DNA from: Thermoplasmata archaeon
GTDB taxonomy: Archaea > Thermoplasmatota > Thermoplasmata > Lutacidiplasmatales > UBA184
Assembly (NCBI GenBank): GCA_021809545.1
Contig: JAKAYL010000005.1
Span: 1-57,293 of the forward strand
Length of the DNA: 57,293 bases
Reading direction: 5' to 3'
Under the pieces are notes generated by a model. That model did no database searches. It had not been told where the DNA came from and saw only the letters and a program-made list of their open reading frames with translations. Shown here one piece after another: positions 22,912-27,693 of the stretch. A program made the position numbers and the translations under genes. Position 1 is the first letter of the stretch, and each line of letters begins with the position of its first letter.

Positions 22912-23541
22912 ATGCGCATCGTGTTCATCGGCCCGCCCGGGGCTGGAAAGGGAACACAGGCCAAGCTTGCAGCACGATCCCTCGGCATCCCCCATATCTC
23001 TACCGGTGACATGCTACGGGCGGCCGTGGCCAAGGGGACCGCGGCGGGAAAGGACGCCGCGACCTACATGAACGCAGGAAAGCTGGTGCCCGATCCCGTG
23101 GTCCTGCGCATGCTCGAGGACCGGCTCAAGGAATGTGATGTGGCCCCGGGGTTCATCCTGGACGGATACCCCCGCAACGTCGACCAGGCGGAGGCGCTCT
23201 CCACGCTCACCCCCGTCGACCGGGTCGTCTACTTCCAGATCCGTCTCGAAGACCTTCTCGAACGGCTGGTGGAGCGGCGGGTCTGCCCGAAGTGCAACTC
23301 GGTGTACAACCTGAGGTCCCACCCTCCGCAGAAAGCGGGATTCTGCGACAACGATGCGACCCCCCTCGAACAGCGCCCGGACGACCGGAAGGAGGTCGTC
23401 GAGGCCAGGTTCCGCACCTACGAGGAGCAGACCGCCCCTCTCATCGACCATTACACCCAGAAGGGCCTCCTGGTGAAAGTGACCGCCTGGGGTGATCCCG
23501 CGGCGATCCAGACCCGCGTCCTGGAGGTGCTGCGCGCATGA
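22912..23541 (+). CDS. adk: Adenylate kinase
   Basis: IVFIGPPGAGKGTQAKLAA, ISTGDMLRAAV, ILDGYPRNVDQAEAL; TATA-like ggctaatatgc upstream. Confidence 0.97.
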   Translation: MRIVFIGPPGAGKGTQAKLAARSLGIPHISTGDMLRAAVAKGTAAGKDAATYMNAGKLVPDPVVLRMLEDRLKECDVAPGFILDGYPRNVDQAEALSTLTPVDRVVYFQIRLEDLLERLVERRVCPKCNSVYNLRSHPPQKAGFCDNDATPLEQRPDDRKEVVEARFRTYEEQTAPLIDHYTQKGLLVKVTAWGDPAAIQTRVLEVLRA

Positions 23542-23957
23542 CCCCTCCCCGCGTCGACGAGCAAGAGCGGATGACCGCGATCTCCAAGCTCCTGCGGGAC
23601 GCCTTGGACCTCGCAGAAGGGACCTCGGCCAAGCCCATCGAGCGGGAGAACATGTCCGCCCTGCTCGCCGGGGCCCTGCTGAAGCTCATCCAGCATCCCT
23701 CCCACGCCCCGAAGAGCCCCAACGAGGACCTGTCGGTCGACTTCCTGCTGAGCGTCCTCCAGAAGGAGACGGAGCGGCTCGAGGAAGCGAAGACCGAGGT
23801 CAAGCGCAAGGACACCGAGCTCGGACTGAAGCTCAAGTTCGCCAAGGACAAGGAGAAGGAACTGCAGGAGAAGGAGGCGGCGTTGGCCCGCTTCGAGGCT
23901 CAGCTACGGGTCCGCGAGAATTTCCTGCAGAAGCGCGAGGCTACGAAGTCGCACTGA
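23538..23957 (+). CDS. Coiled-coil protein of unknown function
   Basis: 4-nt overlap with adk; Lys/Glu-rich heptad-like C-terminal half (EKETERLEEAKTEVKRKDTELGLKLKFAKDKEKELQEKEAALARFE). Confidence 0.8.
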   Translation: MTPPRVDEQERMTAISKLLRDALDLAEGTSAKPIERENMSALLAGALLKLIQHPSHAPKSPNEDLSVDFLLSVLQKETERLEEAKTEVKRKDTELGLKLKFAKDKEKELQEKEAALARFEAQLRVRENFLQKREATKSH

Positions 23958-24206: not shown

Positions 24207-24230
24207 AAAACCCGGCCCGGGAGGGCCGGG
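24207..24230 (-). terminator. GC hairpin followed by T-run, 3' of the RGG/zinc-ribbon gene
   Basis: On minus strand CCCGGCCC-tccc-GGGCCGGG-TTTT, about 10 nt beyond the stop codon at 24240. Confidence 0.6.
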
Positions 24231-24239
24231 TCGCGGGCC

Positions 24240-25100
24240 CTAGTAGTCGTCCCGCCGCCGGCGCTTGCGGAAGCCGCCCTCGCGGCCGCCTCCGAAGCCT
24301 CCCCGGCTCTCCCGTCGTCCTTCTCCAAAGGAGCGGCCACCGGAGCTCCCGCCGAAGCGCGAACGGAAGCCACCGCCTCCGCCACCACCGCCGCGACCGT
24401 AGCCTCCGCCGCCACCCCGGCCGTAACCGCCGCCACCGCCTCCCCGTCCTTCCTCGCGGCGTCGGGGGAGGGTGAACTTGTTGTCGCACTCGGTGCACAT
24501 GCCGGTGACAGTACCGTCGTCCGAGGTCTCGAACCGGAGCGGAGCTCCGCACAGACGGCATCCCCGCTGGGGTCGTCCGCCGGCACCGCCCATTCCTTGA
24601 CGGAAGGAGGGTCTCCGGTCTCTGCCGCCACCGCCGCCAAATCCTCCTCGTCCGCGGTCCTCACTGAACCGTGGGCGATCGGGAAGCGCCAGCACGAAGC
24701 GGAAGGTGGATCCGCACTCGGAGCACGAACCCTGCACATCGCCCTGGGGATCTTCTTCGAAGGTCAAGGCACCGCCGCAGGATCGGCAACCGGAACGCGC
24801 CCTCTTCGGGCCGTGAGCCCGTCGCCGGGGGCTTTCCTCGGTCTCCTCTCCCTCGTCGTCCTCTTGTTCGTCGTCGTCCTCGTCACCCTCTTCGGGTTCC
24901 TCGGTCTCTTCGCTCGCTGTCTCTTCTTCGTCGGGGAGTCCCTCTTTCCCAGCTTCCTTCTTACCGTCCTGTCCGGGCTTCGGTGTTTCCGCGGCCACCG
25001 TCATGGTGAACCCGCACGCCTCGCACGTACCAACCAGCCTTCCGTTCTCTTCCTGAGAGAAGCTCAATACTTCCCCGCACTCACTGCACACGTTCTTCAC
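24240..25100 (-). CDS. Triple zinc-ribbon protein with acidic linker and RGG/GYGRG-rich tail
   Basis: Three CxxCGxxLxF...GxCxxC modules (CSECGEVLSF..GTCEAC; CRSCGGALTF..GSCSEC; CRLCGAPLRF..GMCTEC), EDDDEQEDDEGEE linker, Gly/Arg-rich C-terminus ending RKRRRRDDY. Confidence 0.88.
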   Translation of the reverse strand: MKNVCSECGEVLSFSQEENGRLVGTCEACGFTMTVAAETPKPGQDGKKEAGKEGLPDEEETASEETEEPEEGDEDDDEQEDDEGEETEESPRRRAHGPKRARSGCRSCGGALTFEEDPQGDVQGSCSECGSTFRFVLALPDRPRFSEDRGRGGFGGGGGRDRRPSFRQGMGGAGGRPQRGCRLCGAPLRFETSDDGTVTGMCTECDNKFTLPRRREEGRGGGGGGYGRGGGGGYGRGGGGGGGGFRSRFGGSSGGRSFGEGRRESRGGFGGGREGGFRKRRRRDDY

Positions 25101-25252
25101 AAAACACGCTCTTTTCGTTCTAGGGCACTCCCGGGTCCTAGATAACGTGCATGCCTAACCCGGGGGCCCCCGCGGGAGGCGGTTGGGAGGGGGAACGGAG
25201 TTCCCGCTCCCGTGGGAAAAACCTTTAACCCACCCCCCTACTGGTAGCCTTC

Positions 25253-25567
25253 GTGACGACGGACTCGGAGAATGTCGGGAACCGGAGAGCGGGCTATCTC
25301 ATCGGGGCCTCCTTCCTCATCGTCTTCGGGTTCGGCGTTGGGATCCTGCTCAACATCGTGGCCCACCTTTCGGCCCCTCCCAACGGGGCCCAGTTCTTCT
25401 TCGTGACGATCTACCCTACCTGGGGGCTCTACGCGACCCTGACGCTCATCCTGGGGATCGTGGCCACCTTCGTCGGCCTGGGAATGGTCTGGCTCGGGGT
25501 CAACACCCCGTACGGCCCGCTCTCCCTCATCGACACGGAAGGAAAGCCGAAGGAATCCCCGCACTGA
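25253..25567 (+). CDS. Small membrane protein (about 3 TM), unknown
   Basis: GTG start; hydrophobic segments LIGASFLIVFGFGVGILLNIVAHL, LTLILGIVATFVGLGMVWLGV; TTTAAC-type AT box upstream. Confidence 0.75.
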   Translation: MTTDSENVGNRRAGYLIGASFLIVFGFGVGILLNIVAHLSAPPNGAQFFFVTIYPTWGLYATLTLILGIVATFVGLGMVWLGVNTPYGPLSLIDTEGKPKESPH

Positions 25568-25633: not shown

Positions 25634-26584
25634 TCAGGGCTCCTTGCTCAGGGCGCGGAGCCGGGCAAGCTTCGTTAGGAACTCTACCCCTTCCCCGGTC
25701 TTCATGGGCTTTCCGTCCGGGCGGACGAGGGGAAGCCCCGCCTCTTCGCAGGCCTTCCGCTCCTCCGTCCCGCGGAGGATGGCGGCGAGCGCCCGGCGTT
25801 CCCGGTGGCTGAAGGTCTCGGAGTTGAGATCGAAATCCTCGAAGGCCTTGTAGGCGACGGGGACGACCGTCTTCACCATCTCCGCCATGACGGCGGAATA
25901 TTCCCGGATCTCCTCTTGGGCGTGGGGGTCCATGCGGAGCTTCAGGAAATGGAAGAGGTTGTGGAGGTTGATCTTCCAATACCACTCGGTGTAGAACCCG
26001 ACGGGGAGGACGATCCGGGCGATCTCACGGGCGACCCCGAGGCCGAGGAAGGCTTCGTAGCGGCCGTAGGCGTCGTCGTAGACCCCCTGGAGCTCCTTCC
26101 GGAAGGCCGCCACCTCGTCCGGGGGGAGGACCTCATCGGACCTGCCCTGACGGTTCTGGGTGTCCTGCCGGCGAACTGCCTCGGGGCGAGGGACCTCGTA
26201 CTCGTCGGGGACGATGGAGTACCGGGCGCTCGCCTCGTTCACGGAGGCGGTGCGGTGCCGGATCCACTGTCGGGCAACGTAGATCGGGAGCCGGACCAGG
26301 AACTTGAACTCGACCATCTCGAAGGGAGTGGTGTGGTGGTGGCGCATGAGGTAGCGAAGGAGGGCCTCGTCGGAGCGCACGGACTTCGTGCCGAGCCCGT
26401 AGGAGACCCGCGCGGCCTGGACGATGGCCGCGTCGTTGCCCATGTAATCGACCAGGGCCACGAAGCCGTGCTGGAGGACGGGTTTCCGCACTCCGATCAG
26501 GGCGTCCGCCGCCGGGATCGAAGGACGGACCATGGGGGCCACCTGGTGGCTGTCCACCGGGGTGATGCCTTCCTCGTCGGCCAT
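25634..26584 (-). CDS. thyX: Flavin-dependent thymidylate synthase
   Basis: ThyX signature RHRTASVNEASARYS. Confidence 0.97.
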   Translation of the reverse strand: MADEEGITPVDSHQVAPMVRPSIPAADALIGVRKPVLQHGFVALVDYMGNDAAIVQAARVSYGLGTKSVRSDEALLRYLMRHHHTTPFEMVEFKFLVRLPIYVARQWIRHRTASVNEASARYSIVPDEYEVPRPEAVRRQDTQNRQGRSDEVLPPDEVAAFRKELQGVYDDAYGRYEAFLGLGVAREIARIVLPVGFYTEWYWKINLHNLFHFLKLRMDPHAQEEIREYSAVMAEMVKTVVPVAYKAFEDFDLNSETFSHRERRALAAILRGTEERKACEEAGLPLVRPDGKPMKTGEGVEFLTKLARLRALSKEP

Positions 26585-26634: not shown

Positions 26635-27693
26635 ATGAAGGTCCTGGTCTACGACAAGAAGACCCACTTCCTCAAGCTCCGAGTCGAGACGGCGAGCGAC
26701 CTCTGGCGCCTCTCCCGGCTCGTGGTGAAAGGGGACTCGGTGGGGGGATTCACCCACCGGAGGGATCCCGAGGCCCCGGCCGACACTCCGGAGGCGCAGC
26801 GAGAGCGCCGCCCCGTCTTCCTCAGCCTCCGGGTCGAGAAGATCGAGTTCCACGAGTTCACTGGCCATCTTCGCTTCACGGGCCCGATCACGGAGGCCCC
26901 CTTCGATATCGGCCGGCACCACACGCTCGACTTCGAGCAGGGCGCAGACGTCTCCCTGCTGAAGCCCGAGCTCAACGCCTCGGACTGGGCCCTCATCGAC
27001 GAGGGCAAGCGAAGCCTGGGGGAGCCCCGGCTCGTGATCGCCTGCATCGACTGGAGCGAGGGGACCCTCGTCCGCGTCCACGGCCGGACCAACGAGGTGA
27101 TCCAGGAGTTCAACCGTACCGGCACGGGGAAGTACGTTCACGCTCCCGGCGGGAAGAAGGAGAAGGAGAACGAGCAGTACCTGGTGGACATCGTGACCAC
27201 CTTGGAACGGGAGGTCGAGGGGGCGAAGGCGCTCATCTTCTCCGGCCCAGGGTTCTGCAAGGAGAGCCTCTTCCGCCACTGGAAGTCGGCCCCCCGGAAG
27301 GGGCCGGTCCCCCTGGTGGAGGCGACGGCCGAGGCAGGCATGCCCGGCATCCAGGAGCTCCTCCGGTCAGGGAAGGCGGAGAGCGCCCTCTCCGGCTCGC
27401 TCTCGGCCGAGGAGGCGAGAGAGGTCGAGCGTCTGGTGCGCTCCCTCGGGACCGCGGGACTGGCCGCGGTCGGTCCGAAGGAGGTCACCAAGGCCTCGGA
27501 CGCCGGAGCGGTGGAGCGTCTGCTGGTGCTCGACACCCACCTTCGGGAGCCCTCGGTAGCGGAGAGCTTGGACGCCGTCCGCTCCGGGGGAGGGAAGATA
27601 CTGATCGTGCGGCACGAAGGAGAGGCGGGGAAGCGGCTCAAGGGGCTCGGCGGGATCGCCGCGATCCTGCGCTATCCGCTGGCCCTATCGTAG
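26635..27693 (+). CDS. pelA: aPelota ribosome rescue factor
   Basis: Pelota/eRF1-like three-domain layout: SDLWRLSRLVVKGDSV, HTLDFEQGADVSLLKPELN, ALIFSGPGFCKESLFRHW. Confidence 0.95.
   Translation: MKVLVYDKKTHFLKLRVETASDLWRLSRLVVKGDSVGGFTHRRDPEAPADTPEAQRERRPVFLSLRVEKIEFHEFTGHLRFTGPITEAPFDIGRHHTLDFEQGADVSLLKPELNASDWALIDEGKRSLGEPRLVIACIDWSEGTLVRVHGRTNEVIQEFNRTGTGKYVHAPGGKKEKENEQYLVDIVTTLEREVEGAKALIFSGPGFCKESLFRHWKSAPRKGPVPLVEATAEAGMPGIQELLRSGKAESALSGSLSAEEAREVERLVRSLGTAGLAAVGPKEVTKASDAGAVERLLVLDTHLREPSVAESLDAVRSGGGKILIVRHEGEAGKRLKGLGGIAAILRYPLALS

Follow-up and report, generated by a model that had tools for sequence, protein, structure and literature searches.

In the FET proteins FUS, EWS and TAF15, an RRM and a RanBP2-type zinc finger are combined with interspersed RGG segments (PMC4661536). 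In the C-terminal region of human TOP3B, zinc fingers are followed by an RGG box that is needed for nucleic-acid activity (PMC10969213), and G/R-rich low-complexity domains are the class that has been tied most consistently to RNA binding in eukaryotes (PMC11132505). Archaeal fibrillarin has been reported to lack a GAR domain (PMC9957100). High-affinity RNA binding has been described for the Sulfolobus SSB, which contacts RNA polymerase via its tail and was proposed to act as an mRNA chaperone (PMC5346138). Here, we describe an archaeal protein with three zinc ribbons and an R/G-rich tail, encoded in a stretch of 57,293 nucleotides from a Thermoplasmata archaeon, hereafter called the window.

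Along the 286 amino acids of this protein, the order is ribbon 1, an acidic linker, ribbon 2, an R/G-rich linker, ribbon 3 and an R/G/aromatic tail (Table 1). The three CxxCG-type ribbons, the acidic stretch and the two Gly/Arg-rich stretches on which the original prediction was built are all present in this ORF. All ribbons are of the C4 type, C-x2-C-x17-C-x2-C, with the cysteines C5/C8/C26/C29, C105/C108/C126/C129 and C181/C184/C202/C205, and they resemble each other, sharing the positions C, CG, L, F, G, GxC and C. AlphaFold2, run with 22 homologues in the alignment, predicts the ribbons to form three separate three-stranded folds with a pLDDT mostly above 90 and everything outside of them to be disordered. 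The domain order, whose conservation in related genomes the original prediction had proposed to check, is kept: three ribbons, the R/G linker and an Arg-ending tail are found in 76 of the 78 complete distinct homologues, and an Arg cluster forms the C-terminal end in all 78. Besides its cysteines, ribbon 3 contains the invariant residues R182, F190, N207 and F209, and R214 follows just after the ribbon; of the 21 columns that are invariant in the alignment, 12 belong to this module or directly follow it. Among close pairs, pN/pS is 0.14 for the ribbons, 0.26 for the tail and 0.40 for the linkers, and the value of the tail indicates that it is under selection rather than drifting repeat DNA. 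The structural description of the protein is solid, and its architecture is real and goes beyond chance, given its presence in 92 of 103 genomes of the family and the purifying selection on the tail. In a genus-mate, ribbon 1 is missing and the protein begins at the acidic linker (L141, G001:C122), reflecting either a true loss or an assembly error.

Table 1. Features of the gene, its flanking signals and the encoded protein (positions in the window)
Feature	Position	Strand	Basis or remark
CDS, three-ribbon R/G-tail protein	24240..25100	-	286 aa, GTG start; homologues in 92/103 family genomes
TATA-like element TTATCTAG, inferred promoter	25138..25145	-	about 45 nt upstream of GTG
Zinc ribbon 1, residues 5-36, LysW/TFIIB-like	24993..25088	-	alignment; AF2 pLDDT 88-95, three strands; weak LysW match
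Acidic disordered linker, residues about 56-90	24831..24935	-	pLDDT about 50 or below
Zinc ribbon 2, residues 105-136	24693..24788	-	alignment and AF2
Disordered R/G-rich linker between ribbons 2 and 3, residues 146-176	24573..24665	-	pLDDT <50 for most
Zinc ribbon 3, residues 181-212	24465..24560	-	alignment; pLDDT >90; best-conserved module
Disordered tail rich in R, G and aromatic residues (214-286), closing with an Arg cluster and an acidic end	24243..24461	-	low pLDDT, pN/pS, composition
Hairpin CCCGGCCC-TCCC-GGGCCGGG followed by TTTT, possible terminator	24211..24230	-	not conserved

Within the family to which the window belongs (Ca. Lutacidiplasmatales, UBA184 group, Thermoplasmatota), the 92 positive genomes carry essentially one copy each, and the gene is found in all 36 high-quality genomes (completeness of 90% or more, contamination of 5% or less); it thus encodes a single-copy core protein of the family. 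Nearly all homologues stem from Thermoplasmata MAGs, including UBA184 and AcS/SubAcS genomes; these belong to Ca. Lutacidiplasmatales, whose members inhabit acidic soils (PMC9287336). In genus g6, three of six genomes (G020, G023 and G024, 82-89% complete) yielded no match, owing to incompleteness or true loss. The gene is absent from three genomes of two other families of the same order, and the samples searched from the class and the phylum yielded no full-length relative; weak matches outside the family, which were read individually, proved to be unrelated proteins, either with two ribbons or located in the membrane, and lack an R/G tail. As no relative is detectable outside the family, the R/G-tailed architecture appears to have arisen by convergence with the eukaryotic proteins.

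The disordered parts of the protein are conserved in a different manner than the ribbons. The linker between ribbons 1 and 2 is strongly acidic in genera g1, g3 and g4 only, and the linker preceding ribbon 3 contains 20% R and 14% G (77 homologues). The tail of the window protein has 73 residues, 48% of which are Gly and 23% Arg, with recurring Tyr/Phe and the last residues KRRRRDDY. Pooled tails consist of 30% R, 27% G, 10% P, 10% D, 7% aromatic residues and 0.5% K, with zero Cys; the R:K ratio is about 60:1, compared to about 5:1 in the neighbouring genes (R 8.4%, K 1.8%). Clustered RG/RGG motifs, defined as motifs separated by gaps of 0-4 residues, occur in 42 of 77 tails (2 tri-RGG, 12 di-RGG, 9 tri-RG and 19 di-RG); the other 35 have none, including the tail of the window protein, whose gaps are longer. 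Genera near the window combine GYGRGGGG-like repeats with acidic linkers, and most other genera have an R/G/P form of the tail, in which RGPP occurs 43 times compared to 3.8 times expected from shuffled tails. The RG dipeptide is rarer than in shuffled tails, probably because Arg clusters at the tail end. The tail is therefore conserved as a composition and not as a fixed RGG repeat, RGG/GYGRG repeats being a trait of some clades. The original prediction had hinged on the tail being neither absent nor scrambled in close relatives: all relatives read do possess an R/G/aromatic tail with Arg clustered at its end, but its sequence is not fixed. The genome was searched for one methylase, PRMT5 (PF05185), which gave no match, so a putative arginine methylation has no visible enzyme of this type.

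Searches of Pfam and NCBIfam with the window protein gave only matches below the curated cut-offs, all to generic zinc-ribbon models, which the homologues also match weakly; no established RNA-binding family was matched above its cut-off. The NCBIfam model of the HVO_0758 zinc-finger family scores 19.5 bits, compared to a cut-off of 70 bits. PF16919 gave no match in any of 11 genomes, controls included, which makes this search uninformative. Weak matches in the PDB point to LysW, RPA12/RpoM and RPB12, and Foldseek searches with the ribbons weakly recovered ribbons of RPB9, aIF2-beta and RNase P Rpp21 (best E 5.6e-3), the best matches being RPB9-type subunits, which span two ribbons. The RPB9 Pfam model weakly matches 3 of 22 members, below its cut-off and without a match to the window protein, and the TFIIB model weakly matches a few members. 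Such similarities would suit an accessory factor of RNA polymerase, whose ribbons would dock like those of RPB9, TFS or TFIIB, with nascent RNA or DNA being gripped by its Arg tail. However, the matches are all weak and generic to zinc ribbons, the ribbons, as read by eye, have no evident catalytic acidic pair of the TFS type, and the protein is absent from the other archaeal groups searched, although these possess the same kind of RNA polymerase; we regard this role as unlikely, though as a live alternative. The weak LysW match of ribbon 1 (PDB, NCBIfam) and the E or D found as last residue in 65 of 77 homologues could also be taken to indicate a metal-storage or carrier protein with LysW-like carrier ribbons, in which the C-terminal acidic residue would be the attachment point. 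LysW, however, is a protein of about 54 amino acids with a single ribbon, and its EDWGE end is found in none of the homologues read, which instead finish in clustered Arg and differ in their last residue. A LysW carrier is ruled out by this C-terminus of an Arg cluster plus D/E, and a storage or carrier role is altogether highly improbable. Among the Pfam matches listed for the window protein and its homologues, PF01396, the model of topoisomerase ribbons, does not occur, and the long proteins matched outside the family are unrelated; an origin from topoisomerase I ribbons was thus rejected, as was a defence system, since PADLOC gave no match.

The genomic context argues for a gene that is probably transcribed on its own. 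The adjoining ORFs (23538-23957 and 25253-25567, neither of which has a Pfam match) both lie on the plus strand, opposite to the gene, which makes a single transcription unit probable. A conserved operon or set of neighbours was not recovered, as shared neighbours occurred in a minority of loci at most when the ORFs around 85 homologues were compared all-against-all. Nearby, on the plus strand, a Pelota-like protein with eRF1 domains 1 and 3 is encoded (26635-27693), adjoining thyX on the minus strand (25634-26584). It had been predicted that the gene possesses its own hairpin terminator and hence may be monocistronic and well expressed. The hairpin is present and the gene does stand alone between opposite-strand neighbours; however, the hairpin is unremarkable for its base composition (z -1.9 compared to shuffles, not significant), and a hairpin with a T-rich stretch is found in only 11 of 78 relatives, so a conserved terminator was discarded. 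Upstream of the start codon, many relatives, e.g. L058, L066 and L102, carry the motif TAAWGAG at a distance of 31-39 nt. At this distance, 37 copies were counted, compared to 10 elsewhere when 751 kb of flanking DNA were scanned on both strands, and none lies upstream of 216 other genes. TAAWGAG thus looks like a conserved gene-specific promoter; L075, like the window gene, carries TTATCTAG in its place.

As far as context is concerned, a nucleic-acid role is supported most strongly by another protein of the same genome. When the genome was searched with a single DNA pattern encoding GGGG[FY]G, this revealed, besides the window gene and apparently chance ORFs, one clear protein, an OB-fold SSB (L161; G000:C36:111973-112314, minus strand) that matches PF21473 (E 4e-15) and the Sulfolobus SSB in the PDB. 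Its C-terminus, FGGGGGGGGGYGRGDDRGGRDRPRRF, contains a GGGGYGRG tail nearly identical to that of the three-ribbon protein. A Gly/Tyr/Arg tail of about 22-58 amino acids is present on the SSB in all 30 loci read (L161 and its relatives L162-L190), ending mostly with PRRF in g1, g3 and g4 and mostly with YKRY in other genera. Tails of this kind are therefore carried by nucleic-acid binders in this lineage, and by this analogy RNA and ssDNA would be equally good ligands. The same observation, together with the similar tail styles of both proteins in g1, g3 and g4, speaks for a nucleoid or ssDNA protein, whose Arg tail would coat or compact DNA or which would act alongside the SSB. In type IA topoisomerases, C-terminal zinc ribbons serve to bind ssDNA, and human TOP3B has an RGG box in addition (PMC10969213); however, the ribbons described here do not match PF01396, for which the genome has its own match on another contig (C40). 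Gly-rich aromatic tails that contain Arg in place of Lys are a feature typical of RNA binders rather than of DNA binders. A role on DNA is, like that at RNA polymerase, a live but unlikely alternative.

We slightly favour the view that the protein is a lineage-specific single-stranded nucleic-acid-binding protein, most likely an RNA-binding one. The three rigid zinc ribbons would be arranged like beads on disordered linkers, and ribbon 3, located between two R/G-rich segments, would provide the specific contact; together with its flanks, it would operate in the manner of the RGG-zinc finger-RGG unit in FUS/TAF15. The Arg/Gly/aromatic segments, which are almost free of Lys, may touch the bases and phosphates of RNA weakly at many points, and in the clade of the window, the acidic linker might compete with RNA for the Arg tail and thereby tune binding. 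The outcome would be an RNA-coating or RNP-bridging factor expressed from its own promoter. RNA as the ligand, the division of labour between the parts and multivalent bridging are what we infer from the architecture kept in 76 of 78 homologues, the invariant residues of ribbon 3, the pN/pS of the tail, the R:K bias and the tail of the SSB, which make RNA binding the most likely reading; the weak structural neighbours RPB9, aIF2-beta and RNase P Rpp21 point weakly in the same direction. Against it stand the lack of a match to an RNA-binding family above cut-off, the weakness of the Foldseek matches and the absence of a conserved neighbourhood pointing to RNA processing around the 85 homologues. 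In addition, the link between G/R-rich domains and RNA was published for eukaryotes, the SSB precedent fits ssDNA equally, and clustered RGG/RG motifs are absent from 35 of 77 tails. The proposal of a candidate archaeal RNA-binding protein stands up by its architecture; of the more specific functions that had been suggested, condensate formation is possible and RNA chaperone activity hypothetical. It is tempting to speculate that a whole archaeal family evolved a FET-like condensate scaffold of its own, in which the ribbons serve as RNA-specific stickers, the tail brings about phase separation in the presence of RNA, tuning is provided by the acidic linker and not by arginine methylation, and the SSB carries a matching tail; we estimate the chance of this at roughly one in five.

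The same architecture has not been described for archaea in the open-licence literature searched, and no family in Pfam, NCBIfam, the PDB or the papers searched already has it. Like the CPxCG zinc-finger small proteins (HVO_0758 family, Brz and LysW), the protein contains ribbons of the general C4 type and weakly matches HVO_0758 and LysW; however, CPxCG proteins are small and have fewer ribbons. To our knowledge, they do not possess an R/G tail. With the Sulfolobus-type SSB it shares the combination of a small folded module and a disordered C-terminal tail, but the SSB has an OB fold in place of zinc ribbons. In human TOP3B, zinc modules are likewise followed by a C-terminal R/G box; the archaeal protein, however, lacks a topoisomerase domain, and the model for topoisomerase ribbons does not match those found here. 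The predicted likeness to the layout of RGG-box proteins is borne out by the FET proteins, as both have a C4 zinc module flanked by disordered R/G segments with Y/F spacing, which in the archaeal protein comprise residues 146-176 and 214-286. In contrast to the FET proteins, it has three C-x2-C-x17-C-x2-C ribbons without detectable homology and no QGSY domain. It also has no RRM, for which neither the window protein nor 22 homologues have a Pfam match, only the ribbons being folded in the AlphaFold2 model; zf-RanBP, too, is missing, both from the Pfam matches of the window protein (E up to 1) and from the list of 25 families for 22 homologues. The likeness to FUS/TAF15 and to the C-terminus of TOP3B is one of layout only, and membership tests place the protein outside both families. 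RGG-type tails on folded RNA-binding modules are regarded mainly as eukaryotic; here, a protein with a tail of this type is single-copy in every good genome of an archaeal family. Since the GYGRGG repeats give way to RGPP-rich forms between genera and the ribbons do not change, the family provides a natural series in which to examine the sequence features of an Arg-rich tail that are important for RNA binding and condensation, in cells without a detected PRMT5.
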